Below are positions 3,545-58,758 of a DNA stretch of 64,000 nt, in pieces. Location of the stretch: positions 1-64,000 of the forward strand of contig NZ_WQNH01000004.1 in the NCBI RefSeq assembly GCF_009812055.1, given 5' to 3'. A program made the translations under genes and the position numbers. The notes under the pieces are model-generated. The model was not told where the DNA came from and did no database searches. It saw nothing but the letters and a program-made list of their open reading frames with translations. This stretch comes from Chelativorans xinjiangensis. GTDB lineage: Bacteria; Pseudomonadota; Alphaproteobacteria; Rhizobiales; Rhizobiaceae. Positions within the stretch are counted from its first letter, which is position 1; the number at the start of each line of letters is the position of its first letter.

Positions 3545-6500
3545 CTACCGGCCGATCTCGATGCGCGATTCGATCTCCAGGCGGTAGCGGGCCGGCACCG
3601 CCTTCCACATTTCGGCAACCGTACGGCGCATCTGTTTGACGCGCTCGGCGGCGAGGCGCCGGTCGCCGGTGGCTTCGACATAGGCGATGCGCAGGACCGA
3701 CGGCTCTTGCTCGAGCAAGGCGATGAGGCCCGGAAGCTGCGTGTGCCATTCAGGCAGGAGCACGGTCGTTCCGGGCGCGAATGCCGCGTCATTCACGTCG
3801 ACGCGCACGAGGCGGCCGAGCGCGGCGGCAAAATTGAGACGCTGGGCCTTGCCTGCCGTGAGCCGGACGGCGCGCGGGTTTTCGCTGACGATCCGGTAGC
3901 CCGCAGGCAGCGTGCGCGGGTCGAGCTTCATGATGAAGTTCGAGCCTGCCCGCGCGGGCAGGTCCGCGCAGGCGACATGAAAGCGGCCGCGCGCGTCGGT
4001 GGTCACCAAAAGGCCGGCGACGGTGGAAACGCGGACGCCGCCCAGGCCCACCTCGCCCGGATCCTGATAGCCGTTGCGGTTGATATCGTCGAAGACCCTT
4101 CCGATGATGTCGCCGCAATCGAAGACCGGGTCGACCGTGATCTCGACCCTCGCTTCCGCCTGCGTCACGACTTGGCGGCCGCGCACATCGAAGAGGCCGG
4201 CGCGGTTCACATATTCGCCGGGCTCAATGGAGGCGAGCGCCTGCAGGCTAAGCTGGACCTCCAGTTCCCCATTGGCGTCGATCGATTCGATGGAAAATTG
4301 CAGCGAACGGCCTTCGACGGTTGGAGTGACGGGCTTGCCGGCGATGGTGGCGGAACCTTCCATGAAACGGAAGCCGGGCGGGATCGTGTCGATCAGCGTA
4401 AGATCCCGCATCGGCGCGCCGGCATTGTTGACGGCCCGGATCGTGAACGGCACCGTCTCGCCCCTTCGCACTTCAGTCTGGCCGGCGGTCTTGGTGAGCG
4501 TCAGGTTCACGGTATCGGCAACGACACAGGCTCCGGGATTGACCGCGCAGAAGTTCGCGGGCAACGCCTTGCCTTCCGCATACGCCAGGTTGCTGACGGT
4601 CTTTACGTCGAGCGGCAGGTCGTCGGCGACCTTCATCTTATATCTGACGACCAGCGGCTTTCCGACCGGCACCGTGATGGCGCGCCACACCAGCGGTCTC
4701 GTGCTCGCCGGCTCGCCGGCATTTGCCGAGCCCTTGATATATGTGAGGTGGGGATCGGCCCGGTCCTCGAGATTATAAGGGGAGGGGGCATTGCCTTCGT
4801 TGATGAGCGCGATCTCGAATGTCAGGATCTCGCCCGGCTCCACCAGATCGTCCTGCGCGCCGCCCTCTTCCTCCACCACCGCCTTTTTCGTCGTGACCTT
4901 GCCGGCTGCGGCTATCTCGACGCAGACGCCCGGGCCGGCGCAATTGCGGATCATCTCGACACCGTCGGGGATCGGGTCGGCGACCTTCACCTTGTATCTG
5001 ACGGCCACCTGGCCACGGGCGGGAACCACGACATCCTTCCATTCCAAGGGGTCGATATTGCTCGGCTCGCCCAGTCCCGCGCCGCCTTCGGCCAGCCCGA
5101 TATAGCTGATGCTGTCATCCATGTCGTCGACGAGGTCATAGAGGCCGTCGACATCGCCGTCGTTGGTGAGCGTCAGGGTGTAGATCAGCGTCTCCCCGGG
5201 TTCGGCGACGTCGGCGAGCAGGCCGCCCTCTTCCTCGGGCCCCGTCTTTTCGAGCCGGATATCGTCGTTGGTGATGGTGCACACCGCCACGTCGTTGGCC
5301 GCCAGCGTCAATGTATTGCCCTCGACGGCGGCAGTGTTGTTGACGACGCAACTGTAGAGGCTCGAGCCATAGCCCGAGGGCCCTTCCTCGCCCAGCGTAT
5401 AGGCTCCGAGCGGCACTTGCGCTTGTGTCACGTCCGCATGCCCCTCGGGCCCTCGCTTTTCGACCGGGCCACTCGCCGTAAGCACGAAGTCTCCTTTCAC
5501 GGCGGTCCCTCCATCGTCGTTCACCAATGCCTTCAAGAGCGTCAGCGTAGCCGCCTGGTCGAGGTTCGTAACGGTGCAGACGGTCGTGGTGCCCGGGCCG
5601 AGCGTGACCGTGTTGGCCGGCGAAAGGGCGGTGCCGTCCTGCTCGCATCCATAGGGACCGATGGCCGAATAGCCAGGTACATTATCGGCTTCCGACAACG
5701 TGTATTCGCCCGCCTTCACCGAAGCGCCGGTGACGTCCGGACTCCCATGGTTTCCCTCGATTGGCGTGGGACCAGCGGTGGCGAGGATGAAATCCTCCGC
5801 TTTTGCGGTGCCGACCTTCTCGTTGCGCACGACCTTCCTCAGCGTCAGCGTCGCCGCCTGGTCTTGGTAAACGATGGTGCAGACGGCCTCATCGCCGGAA
5901 TTGAGTGCGAGATCGTCGCTTGAGACCGGATTGCCGCCGTTGACCGTGCAGCTGTAGGAGCCGGTGGGAGCGTAGCCGGAGGGCGCCGTCGGCACGGAGA
6001 GGGCATAGGCGCCGGCGTCGACTTCGGCCTTCGTTACCGCCGTGCCGGTTTCAGTGCCCTCGATCTGTGTCGGCCCGTCGGCCCGCAGGGTGAAATCGTT
6101 ATCCGTGGCGGTGCCGCCGTTGTCGTTGCGGACGTCGACCAGCAGCGTCAGTTTTGCCGGCTGATCGGAATTGGTCACGGTGCACACAGCCGCGTCGCCG
6201 ACGGCGAGCGTGATTTGGTCGTTGGTAAGGGCGGCCTCGGCGCCATTGTTGATCGAACAGCGATAGGGCCCGGCCGTATAGCCGTTCGGACCGCCTGTTT
6301 CCGCCAGCACATAGGTGGCGGCGCTCACCGCCGCGCCCGTGACCGGCGGCTCGCCATGCGCGCCTGAGACGATCGGCGCCGTGGCCCCGGTGGCGGTCGC
6401 CGTCAAGGTGAAGTCCCCTCTTTGAGCCGACCCGCCATGGGTGAGGTTGAGCACTTTCTGCAAGGTGAGCATGGCCGCCTCGTCCCGGTAGGTGACGGTG

Positions 6501-8224
6501 CAGACGGCCACATCGCCGGGAACGAGCGTCAGATTGTCGCTTGCGACGGGATTGCCGCCGTTCACCGTGCAGCTGTAAGGGCCGATGGGCGCATAGCCGG
6601 AGGGCGCCGTCGGAACGGAGAGGGTGTAGGCGCCGGCGTCGACCTCTGCATCCGTTACGGCATTGGCGCCTTCCGCATCCTCGATCGTCGTCGGGCCGGC
6701 AGCCCGTAAAGTGAAATCGGCGTCCGTGGCGGTGCCCCCGTTATCATTCTGCACGGTCACCTGCAGCGTCAGGGTGGCCGGTTGGTCGTCGTTGGTTACG
6801 GTGCACACCGCCTGATCGCCGCTCGCGAGCGTTATCTGGTCGGCGACGGCGGCGGCGCCGTTGACCGCGCAGATGTAGGGGCTGGCCGTATAGCCGTTCG
6901 GGCCGTTGGCCTCCGACAAGGTATAGGATCCTGCGCTCACCTCGGCGTTCGTCACCGTCTGGCTGCCGTGGGCGCCTTGGATCGACGTCGGCCCCGTGGC
7001 GACGAGCGTGAAATCGGCCGGCGCGGCCGACCCGCCATTGTCGTTGGTGACCAGCTTCTGCAACGTAAGCTGTGCCGGCTGGTCGTCGTTGGTGATGGTG
7101 CAGACGGCGATATCGGCGGTGTGGAGCTCAACGTTTTGATCGTCGTCGTCGATGACGGTTTGTGACGTGCCATCTTCGGAAAAGCGTTGGATCTCGCAGC
7201 TATAGCTGGGCGTATATCCGGCTACGGGAACCACCTCCGAGAGTTGGTATTCGCCCGTCGCGACCAGTTGCTCGGTTATGGCCGGGTTGGCCGGATCCGT
7301 ATATTGCCCCGAAATCGTTATGGGTGCTGCCGCGCCTTGCGGCCCCGTTGCGCTAAGCGTAAAGCCGTCGGTCGCACTCGCCGTGCCGCCGTTGTCGTTT
7401 ATCACGGCTTTTTGCAGCGTCAGTACCGGCTGGCAAAGCCCACCTGGATCAAACTGCGAAAGCAACCCCTGGAAGCCACCGACCGACTTGATATGGACGA
7501 CTATTTCGTTGAGATCGCCGGGATCGGTGCCGGTTTTCCATCCGCCGGGCAAAACACCGACTGCGCCGTTTTCTTGAAGAAACCCCGGAAAGTCGTACTC
7601 CTGGCCCGCTGGAAAAGGAGATTTGACGTTTTGCGCGGTGCCATTTACCCACGTCTCGAAGATGTTGTCGTCAGCCCAGAACGCCATATCCATGGCGAGG
7701 CGATCCGTTTGGACTTGTGGATCGAGGTAGAAGCTGAACCGGTAAAATATGTCGAGGTGCCCAGCGGGGTTTTGCTGATGCAGCCCGTTGGCTTGGATCG
7801 ATATCCAGTCCGCATTGGCGTAGGGAGATACGGCCCAGCCCGGCGCGGGCGCTTCGATGACAACCGCTCTTTGATATGTCAGGTTCGTTGGCGGCTGGCC
7901 TCTGACATCCTCGGTGGTTTCAGCCACTTCCCAATAAGCATCGTTCCCACTGTCGAGCGTACCTCCCGTTGCCGCGTTATACGCCGTGTTAAAGATAGCG
8001 CCATCGGTGAAGCAGGTGACGACAGGCGGCTGAACCTGCGCCTGAGCGGGGGAACCAAGGCCGGCGAGCAGGGCCAGGGCCCCTACCACGCCGCATACCA
8101 GCTTTTGCCCACGCTCGCGCGCGGCCTTGAAAAGAAGGGGCGGAAGGCCGCGGACTGTTCTGCGTGGCTGCGCATGCCGGTTTTTATGCACCGGCCTCAT
8201 TTCCCCGACCTGGTTTTGAACCAT
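3545..8224 (-). CDS. Giant secreted multi-repeat surface protein (prealbumin-like, DUF11, SdrD-like and OmpA-like modules)
   Basis: The predicted product is 1559 residues. The start at 8224 is preferred to the longer frame (8275) because GGGAGA lies upstream. A signal segment ends around AQA at residues 60-62. Residues 63-264 are a cysteine-containing N-terminal module I do not recognise. Residues 265-988 are seven tandem prealbumin-like repeats of about 100 residues, each with DNGG-type starts, YTLSE-like strands and two cysteines (YxC and VCT). Residues 989-1365 are three DUF11-like domains. Residues 1370-1472 are an SdrD B-like domain with DINRNGYQDPGE, and 1473-1559 are a shortened OmpA-like tail. 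It probably sits in or beyond the outer membrane; adhesin or scaffold roles are inference. It appears monocistronic, with no secretion partner nearby. Confidence 0.8.
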   Translation of the reverse strand: MVQNQVGEMRPVHKNRHAQPRRTVRGLPPLLFKAARERGQKLVCGVVGALALLAGLGSPAQAQVQPPVVTCFTDGAIFNTAYNAATGGTLDSGNDAYWEVAETTEDVRGQPPTNLTYQRAVVIEAPAPGWAVSPYANADWISIQANGLHQQNPAGHLDIFYRFSFYLDPQVQTDRLAMDMAFWADDNIFETWVNGTAQNVKSPFPAGQEYDFPGFLQENGAVGVLPGGWKTGTDPGDLNEIVVHIKSVGGFQGLLSQFDPGGLCQPVLTLQKAVINDNGGTASATDGFTLSATGPQGAAAPITISGQYTDPANPAITEQLVATGEYQLSEVVPVAGYTPSYSCEIQRFSEDGTSQTVIDDDDQNVELHTADIAVCTITNDDQPAQLTLQKLVTNDNGGSAAPADFTLVATGPTSIQGAHGSQTVTNAEVSAGSYTLSEANGPNGYTASPYICAVNGAAAVADQITLASGDQAVCTVTNDDQPATLTLQVTVQNDNGGTATDADFTLRAAGPTTIEDAEGANAVTDAEVDAGAYTLSVPTAPSGYAPIGPYSCTVNGGNPVASDNLTLVPGDVAVCTVTYRDEAAMLTLQKVLNLTHGGSAQRGDFTLTATATGATAPIVSGAHGEPPVTGAAVSAATYVLAETGGPNGYTAGPYRCSINNGAEAALTNDQITLAVGDAAVCTVTNSDQPAKLTLLVDVRNDNGGTATDNDFTLRADGPTQIEGTETGTAVTKAEVDAGAYALSVPTAPSGYAPTGSYSCTVNGGNPVSSDDLALNSGDEAVCTIVYQDQAATLTLRKVVRNEKVGTAKAEDFILATAGPTPIEGNHGSPDVTGASVKAGEYTLSEADNVPGYSAIGPYGCEQDGTALSPANTVTLGPGTTTVCTVTNLDQAATLTLLKALVNDDGGTAVKGDFVLTASGPVEKRGPEGHADVTQAQVPLGAYTLGEEGPSGYGSSLYSCVVNNTAAVEGNTLTLAANDVAVCTITNDDIRLEKTGPEEEGGLLADVAEPGETLIYTLTLTNDGDVDGLYDLVDDMDDSISYIGLAEGGAGLGEPSNIDPLEWKDVVVPARGQVAVRYKVKVADPIPDGVEMIRNCAGPGVCVEIAAAGKVTTKKAVVEEEGGAQDDLVEPGEILTFEIALINEGNAPSPYNLEDRADPHLTYIKGSANAGEPASTRPLVWRAITVPVGKPLVVRYKMKVADDLPLDVKTVSNLAYAEGKALPANFCAVNPGACVVADTVNLTLTKTAGQTEVRRGETVPFTIRAVNNAGAPMRDLTLIDTIPPGFRFMEGSATIAGKPVTPTVEGRSLQFSIESIDANGELEVQLSLQALASIEPGEYVNRAGLFDVRGRQVVTQAEARVEITVDPVFDCGDIIGRVFDDINRNGYQDPGEVGLGGVRVSTVAGLLVTTDARGRFHVACADLPARAGSNFIMKLDPRTLPAGYRIVSENPRAVRLTAGKAQRLNFAAALGRLVRVDVNDAAFAPGTTVLLPEWHTQLPGLIALLEQEPSVLRIAYVEATGDRRLAAERVKQMRRTVAEMWKAVPARYRLEIESRIEIGR
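5261..7432 (-). repeat. Seven tandem coding repeats within the giant surface protein
   Basis: The repeats begin at about protein residues 265, 384, 483, 584, 690, 791 and 891 and are mostly 98-107 residues long; the first is longer (about 119). Repeats 3 and 5 are near copies (both share DAGAY and PTAPSGYAP), and repeats 2 and 4 resemble each other (both have GPNGYTA), so a two-repeat unit was probably duplicated. Each repeat ends with a VCTxxNxDQ-like linker. The DNA copies are diverged, not exact, which argues for an old expansion. Confidence 0.85.
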
Positions 8225-58380: not shown

Positions 58381-58758
58381 CTAACGGCCGATCGAGGCGC
58401 CGAAGTTGAGCTTCGTCGTTTTGGCCGCTGTCAGCCGCACTACGCGAGGATTCTCCGTCGTCAGGCGGTAGCCTGTGGGCAGCGTGCGCGCATCGAGCTT
58501 CATGATGAAGGCCGAGCCGATGCGCCCTGCCTCCTCGTTTGCGCAGGCGACGTGGAAGCGGCCGTGAGCATCCGTCGTGATGAGCCAGCCGCTGACGGTG
58601 GCAAGCCGCACGCCCGGCAGTCCCGGCTCTCCCGCATCCTGGTAGCCGTTGCCGTTCTGGTCGTCGAAGACGGTTCCTATGACGTCGCTGCAGCCGAAAG
58701 GCTGCGCTGCCGCGCTCGACGTTGTGAGAACGAGGATGGGTAGCGCCAAGGAGAGCAT
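58381..58758 (-). CDS. Small secreted SdrD B-like domain protein
   Basis: A 125-residue precursor with signal peptide ([15 protein letters not shown]) and a single SdrD B-like (Cna-B-type) domain, [19 protein letters not shown] followed by GRFHVACAN. By eye about two thirds of its residues match residues 1370-1472 of the giant protein at 3545-8224, including KLDxRTLPxGYR and ENPRxVRLTA. There is no membrane anchor, so it should be free in the periplasm or exported. AAGGAG lies nine bases before the ATG. It is divergent from the OmpA-family gene. Confidence 0.85.

Follow-up and report, generated by a model that had tools for sequence, protein, structure and literature searches.

A predicted fibrillar adhesin of Chelativorans xinjiangensis with a C-terminal module genetically linked to a family of putative outer-membrane barrels

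The window analysed here is a stretch of 64,000 nucleotides from the 5.7 Mb genome of Chelativorans xinjiangensis (contig NZ_WQNH01000004.1, positions 1 to 64,000). It carries on the minus strand, at 3545..8224, a complete gene for a giant protein of 1559 residues that is predicted to be a fibrillar adhesin. The open frame runs from an ATG at 8224 to its last codon at 3548, with the stop extending to 3545. An alternative in-frame ATG lies 8 codons downstream, at 8200, and frame 1 of the plus strand is broken by four stops over the same stretch. A preliminary description of this DNA had reported a modular protein of 1559 residues here, and we recovered its modules as described, with the frame on the minus strand. 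The nearest genome compared (G001) has an ortholog with 94% identity at the same site; the ortholog is borne by a contig of Chelativorans alearense UJN715. Comparison with the G001 ortholog yields a dN/dS of 0.31 over the whole gene, 0.17 for the N-terminal module and 0.47 for the C-terminal one. The ortholog and this ratio indicate that the gene is maintained, and they argue against an antisense artefact as the origin of the frame, an explanation that was hence dropped.

Among 12 parC loci compared (two of which, in G015 and G005, lack an ate gene in the stretch covered), the giant is found at this site only in the window's genome and in G001. In G006, some 1 kb separates AHSA1 from ate, and the giant is absent between them. 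The neighbours of the gene are housekeeping genes: Pfam identifies ParC and AHSA1, and further genes, judged by their sequences, we take to be Ate, an SLC13-type carrier, an RDD protein and HemB. No export gene is present among the neighbour genes at the locus.

The protein opens with a long positively charged leader and a Sec-type signal peptide (residues 1-62, 8039..8224, minus strand), read from the sequence and likely cut after AQA. It is followed by an N-terminal module (residues 63-267, 7424..8038, minus strand), a candidate binding tip with a sequence pattern that makes an all-beta fold probable. This module also occurs in paralogs, and two Cys are invariant in its ten members. It had been described as unrecognised, and our profile searches of residues 63-267 agree: the ten members gave no convincing Pfam family (best E 0.0035) and the PDB returned nothing better than E 0.07. 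The faint matches obtained, in two of the ten members and including the one at E 0.0035, were to a glycosyl-hydrolase sugar-binding-type domain. The predicted structure of the module, up to residue 380, had a pLDDT of 33.6 (two sequences).

Residues 268-988 (5261..7423, minus strand) make up seven SpaA_2 repeats. The Pfam profile covers all seven (E 4.9e-133) and scores 434.6 bits, its cut-off being 25. A Cys pair is found in every one of them, in line with the seven Cys-paired repeats reported before. Alignment of the repeats shows an intact Lys/Glu/Asn triad in five of the seven. In the other two, repeat 3 (residues 485-585, 6470..6772, minus strand) and repeat 5 (residues 692-792, 5849..6151, minus strand), all three residues are gone together and replaced by Val/Val/Tyr. 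The same pattern was observed across the family, with 35 of 39 repeats carrying Lys/Glu/Asn, four carrying Val/Val/Tyr and none a mixture of both. The first two DUF11-like domains come next (residues 989-1232, 4529..5260, minus strand). Pfam DUF11 (E 1.9e-12) and DUF7927 (E 2.9e-8) each match the giant in two stretches; since NCBIfam B_ant_repeat gives three, the earlier count of three DUF11-like domains holds.

Both SpaA_2 and DUF11 belong to families capable of intramolecular isopeptide bonds, and such bonds may form in the giant. The residues for them are present, and isopeptide bonds are probably the main stiffening chemistry of the stalk. The disulfide-stiffened stalk proposed at the outset thus keeps its Cys pair per repeat and is amended by this second chemistry. 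Disulfides are themselves prevalent in SpaA_2, according to excerpts of PMC12617251. Taken together, the ten SpaA_2 and DUF11 domains resemble the stalk of a fibrillar adhesin, and the giant shows one feature of this class, a long secreted chain (1559 residues with a leader) with repeated stalk domains. The stalk is of a known kind, and it is not odd in Gram-negative cells.

The last 327 residues (residues 1233-1559, 3548..4528, minus strand) form a conserved C-terminal module composed of the third DUF11 domain, an SdrD_B-like domain and an OmpA-like tail. The third DUF11 (residues 1239-1363, 4136..4510, minus strand) is CLIPPER-like, with the fold and the triad Lys1245/Asp1279/Asn1340. Lys/Asp/Asn is conserved in 33 of 34 modules and changed at all three positions in the remaining one. 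Its model matches PDB 9ifr in a fold search, tied with many Ig-like folds; these filled the search of the C-terminal model, which barely probed the other parts. The model of residues 1123-1559 has a mean pLDDT of 60.4, and is usable for the DUF11 domain and the tail, with the SdrD_B-like stretch below 50. The SdrD_B-like domain (residues 1367-1472, 3809..4126, minus strand) is conserved more strongly than the rest of the module, and its Cys1370 and Cys1419 are invariant in all 34 aligned rows. It had earlier been called SdrD-like. In a profile comparison the module matches SdrD (E 1.9e-8); Pfam SdrD_B stays below its cut-off on the giant (20.8 against 29.7 bits).

This module is common to otherwise different proteins. 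Over its last 320-440 residues the giant is 47-56% identical to the further giants encoded in its genome, whose N-terminal parts and stalks differ, and the module recurs more widely in the genus. The window's genome holds six full modules, plus fragments at contig ends. In a survey of 398 Pseudomonadota genomes the module was found in 55, often as just the DUF11 domain and the first part of SdrD_B. This distribution argues against the view that such domains are unusual in Gram-negative cells, as do excerpts of PMC12617251, in which DUF11 is broadly distributed in Gram-negative surface proteins. Distant DUF11/SdrD_B-like genes were also seen on plasmid pTT27 of Thermus thermophilus HB8. The window itself encodes a second relevant protein, a secreted polypeptide of 125 residues (58381..58758, minus strand) that consists of an SdrD_B-like domain alone and is 67% identical to the giant over residues 1367-1472. 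Similar short matches were noticed in six genomes (G001, G002, G006, G011, G012 and G013). It is possible that this small protein is an accessory of the system, for example a plug, a competitor or a chaperone of the barrel described below.

Many relatives are followed, on the same strand, by a gene whose product, about 1250 residues long, we predict to be an outer-membrane barrel of no known family. Its last 663 residues lack Cys and contain 22 amphipathic strand-like stretches, against 11.3 ± 2.8 in shuffled sequences (z 3.8), and the protein ends in Phe. As controls, an autotransporter barrel scored z 2.9, SpaA repeats 0.3 and DUF11 domains 1.6. The long N-terminal non-barrel part of the protein also exceeds its shuffles (8 stretches against 4.2 ± 1.8, z 2.2), so this score is crude and only indicative. 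In the three barrel proteins scanned, no Pfam family exceeded its cut-off over the barrel part. PF03797 was absent from all three, while an autotransporter from the genome of the L063 barrel (L064) matched it at 2.7e-36 in the scan that included this barrel. The public names of these barrels include TonB-dependent receptor, outer membrane protein transport protein, OmpA family protein and hypothetical protein. The first was dropped as an identification because the plug and receptor profiles of Pfam and NCBIfam are unmatched in the three proteins. An Omp85 identity was dropped too, since the POTRA and ShlB families are unmatched in them; together with the TPS-domain families, these are absent by Pfam from the passenger as well as from the three barrels. 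Weak matches of the barrel profile to PPE proteins in the PDB (E 0.13-0.55) were taken as chance. In Eleftheria terrae the barrel protein also bears a true OmpA domain close to the N-terminus, and it matches an outer-membrane barrel weakly.

Module and barrel are genetically linked. Among the capped number of candidates scored in the 398 genomes, with models seeded by small alignments from one bacterial family, 53 genomes had both module and barrel, two the module only and four the barrel only. The barrel matches number 66. In 33 of them barrel and module share one open frame, another 24 lie within 2 kb after a module on the same strand, and nine have none near, which leaves 57 accompanied by a module. 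The genomes and the aligned rows are not independent, and the fused forms come mostly from a few families. In all 33 fused chains the barrel is at the C-terminal side of the module. In the loci that were read, 35 of 56 unfused module genes have a barrel gene within 1.2 kb. Taking the longest frames, 31 of these 35 pairs overlap or are at most 13 bases apart, 15 of them with a stop/start overlap of four bases. Such split pairs are found, for instance, in Sinorhizobium meliloti T073, Nitratireductor OM-1 and Pelagibacterium H642. Of the 32 module genes read within the genus, 15 lie at most 1.2 kb before a barrel gene and 17 do not, some of the latter at contig ends. The statement that no dedicated secretion genes are adjacent is correct for the locus of the giant, but these 15 genes do have a barrel gene nearby. 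Plasmid records match as well, 24 of them to the barrel and 36 to the module; viral contigs yielded no relative of either.

Trees of both partners agree. For 17 adjacent pairs, comparison of the module and barrel trees gave a Mantel r of 0.92. The value was 0.83 for the 15 pairs left after removal of two distant pairs from G054, and 0.82 for the 13 type I pairs; in each case 0 of 2000 permutations was as high.

Several observations were made around these genes. A distant relative on plasmid p4 of Acinetobacter haemolyticus, an annotated chain of about 2008 residues, matches both the module and the barrel models, and an OmpA-family gene comes after it. One protein family occurs beside giants at seven loci (L044, L058, L063, L064, L069, L070 and L075), and the two members checked are AraC-type regulators. 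On an S. meliloti plasmid an AraC-type gene follows the module-barrel pair. On a plasmid of Eleftheria terrae a gene of the aminoglycoside adenylyltransferase family (L120:15087-15896) is annotated near the pair.

The fused forms bear on the tail of the giant (residues 1473-1559, 3548..3808, minus strand), a degenerate OmpA-like stretch and candidate docking element. Of the 33 fused forms, 32 match the module model no further than position 246, a stretch that takes in DUF11 and at most the SdrD_B-like part. The exception is G060, in which an almost complete module leads straight into the barrel, joining its model at position 155, with the barrel leader missing. The tail may hence be dispensable. 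It was found in 19 of the 24 split pairs but in just one of the 33 fused forms, and three genomes (G326, G437 and G102) each have one split pair with a tail and one fused form without it. The preliminary description had called this tail a reduced OmpA-like one, and the evidence for this is weak: a single hhalign comparison with a profile of seven OmpA domains gave 65% probability (E 6e-5, 56 columns), and a model of moderate confidence follows a beta-alpha-beta-alpha-beta order, which fits OmpA. On the other hand, PF00691 does not match the giant by Pfam and reached only one of 30 tails (E 0.035). Neither the single sequence nor a profile of the tail matched any PDB sequence. One Arg is invariant in all 34 modules. 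The HTD loop is the ligand loop of OmpA peptidoglycan-binding domains, and the motif is absent from 30 of 30 tails, making anchoring at peptidoglycan doubtful. From the weak profile match and the loss of HTD we infer an OmpA-derived docking element, and not a working peptidoglycan anchor. The proposal that the tail anchors the giant at peptidoglycan is further weakened by the way in which the tail tracks the outer-membrane barrel.

The giant of the window is an orphan in that no barrel gene lies beside it. Its module falls in a clade that we call type II (the type I and II labels were drawn after the trees were seen). Type II pairs are found in G003 and G006, and their barrels group with solitary barrels of the window's genome (C52:67156-70935) and of G001. 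Type II modules in the tree come from six whole genomes, of which five have type II barrels (G000, that is, the window's genome, G001, G003, G006 and G013). The sixth, G004, has two type II modules and only a barrel end of 77 residues, identical to that of G003; as it lies within a contig, it appears to be a remnant. No type II barrel was seen in eight genomes of the family whose modules in the tree are all of other clades (G005, G007, G008, G011, G012, G015, G020 and G036), a count in which the pieces of G036 score almost alike for both types (301 against 278 bits) and those of G008 and G015 that are short or distant are left untyped. No barrel was found in G009 and G010, which are of the same genus and have no full module, nor in G016 (85% complete), which has a module. 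In G002, barrel ends lie at contig starts and the modules are partial, and several giants lie at contig ends. We predict from this matching of clades that the window giant uses the solitary C52 barrel in trans. Clusters of type II giants in two genomes adjoin sets of three adjacent genes (L067:1447-6297 and L043:349-5207), which from their sequences are presumably SpoVR, YeaH/DUF444 and PrkA.

We consider it likely, with a probability of roughly two in three, that the giant belongs, as a fibrillar adhesin, to a split surface display system resembling an autotransporter. The modules, their triads and the link between module and barrel genes come from the computation itself, whereas bond formation, location in the outer membrane, docking, passage through the barrel, adhesion and pairing in trans are inferred. 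The giant would be exported by Sec, and the barrel partner inserted in the outer membrane. The C-terminal module would then serve as a base that docks on the barrel, which probably either exports the passenger or holds it. The passenger would emerge with its N-terminal module outermost, as a distal binding tip, and the stalk domains would lock thereafter by intramolecular isopeptide bonds and disulfides. Isopeptide domains that had folded in the periplasm would obstruct passage through the barrel unless their folding were delayed. In many bacteria a single chain combines base and barrel, or two neighbouring genes that often overlap encode them; the window giant would use its barrel in trans. 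The arrangement of the fused forms is that of an autotransporter, a point in favour of export through or with the barrel. A broader scheme, which we put forward tentatively and at slightly less than even odds, is that of an undescribed two-component display in which the module is a portable docking and export tag and many giants, orphans included, share few barrels in trans. Module and barrel would derive from the splitting or fusing of an autotransporter-like chain, and the small SdrD_B-like protein could act as a plug or competitor.

An alternative is that the barrel is only an anchor or receptor, so that the giant reaches the outside in some other way, for instance by a type II system, and afterwards clamps onto the barrel with its base. 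This would explain the genetic link equally well, and it would suit the long N-terminal non-barrel part of the barrel protein. It would also suit the window's genome, where four giants of the clade may depend on a single solitary barrel. We nevertheless consider it unlikely, given the classical autotransporter order of the 33 fused chains. That the giant is instead a structural component of a matrix, sheath or surface layer, with its N-terminal module devoted to self-assembly, is compatible with the six full modules of the genome and with a tip whose binding role is putative. It appears distinctly unlikely, as the paralogs differ in their N-terminal and stalk parts in the way adhesins do, and homologs of the tip have the faint sugar-binding-type matches mentioned above. 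Finally, a giant held between cell wall and surface by a peptidoglycan-binding tail, with no dedicated partner, would agree with the weak OmpA match, the strand and helix order of the tail and the invariant Arg, and with a solved DUF11 domain that belongs to a Gram-negative adhesin whose anchoring domain is OmpA-like (excerpts of PMC12617251), but is made improbable by the lack of HTD, the poor yield of Pfam OmpA and the absence of a tail match in 32 of 33 fused forms.

The preferred reading, a split display system, has likenesses in several known ones. Classical autotransporters (type Va) resemble the fused forms, which have module and C-terminal barrel in one chain, but the L063 barrel lacks PF03797 and, in the present system, passenger and barrel are separate genes. 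Type Vb systems such as FhaB/FhaC comprise a large passenger and a separate outer-membrane partner encoded by one gene pair. The split pairs resemble them in joining a large passenger and a separate, predicted outer-membrane partner in one gene pair; the present system differs in that the POTRA, ShlB and TPS families are unmatched by Pfam and that its common module is C-terminal and not N-terminal. Gram-positive proteins of the SdrD/Cna type have in common with the giant the SpaA/CnaB and SdrD_B-like domains, whereas the giant ends in an OmpA-like tail instead of a sortase motif and is linked to an outer-membrane barrel. A further likeness in architecture is to B9T28_05395 of Acinetobacter silvestris (excerpts of PMC12617251; PDB 9IFR), a fibrillar adhesin with an N-terminal adhesive part, a DUF11 isopeptide stalk and an OmpA-like C-terminal domain. 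Unlike it, the window giant is dominated by SpaA_2 repeats, has a tail without HTD and possesses an SdrD_B-like base that is linked to a family of barrels. The main text of PMC12617251 nowhere uses the word barrel.

The new part is the C-terminal module and its tie to a barrel family, the stalk being of a kind already known. No description of the module-barrel pair was found in the titles and abstract openings of the open-access literature searched, a scope outside which subscription journals and most preprints fall. The pairing is widespread and apparently undescribed. In a survey of fibrillar adhesins, nearly half were without a known anchor (excerpts of PMC8286594), and Pfam finds no known anchor domain on the giant. 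The conserved base-barrel pair, which 53 of the 398 Pseudomonadota genomes in the sample possess, would give one of the missing answers on anchoring, and identification of the barrel would correct the doubtful public name of TonB-dependent receptor. The orphan giant of the window raises the direct question of whether it uses a barrel encoded elsewhere in the genome. Furthermore, the base-barrel pair would offer a natural route to display very long, chemically locked fibres on Gram-negative cells.
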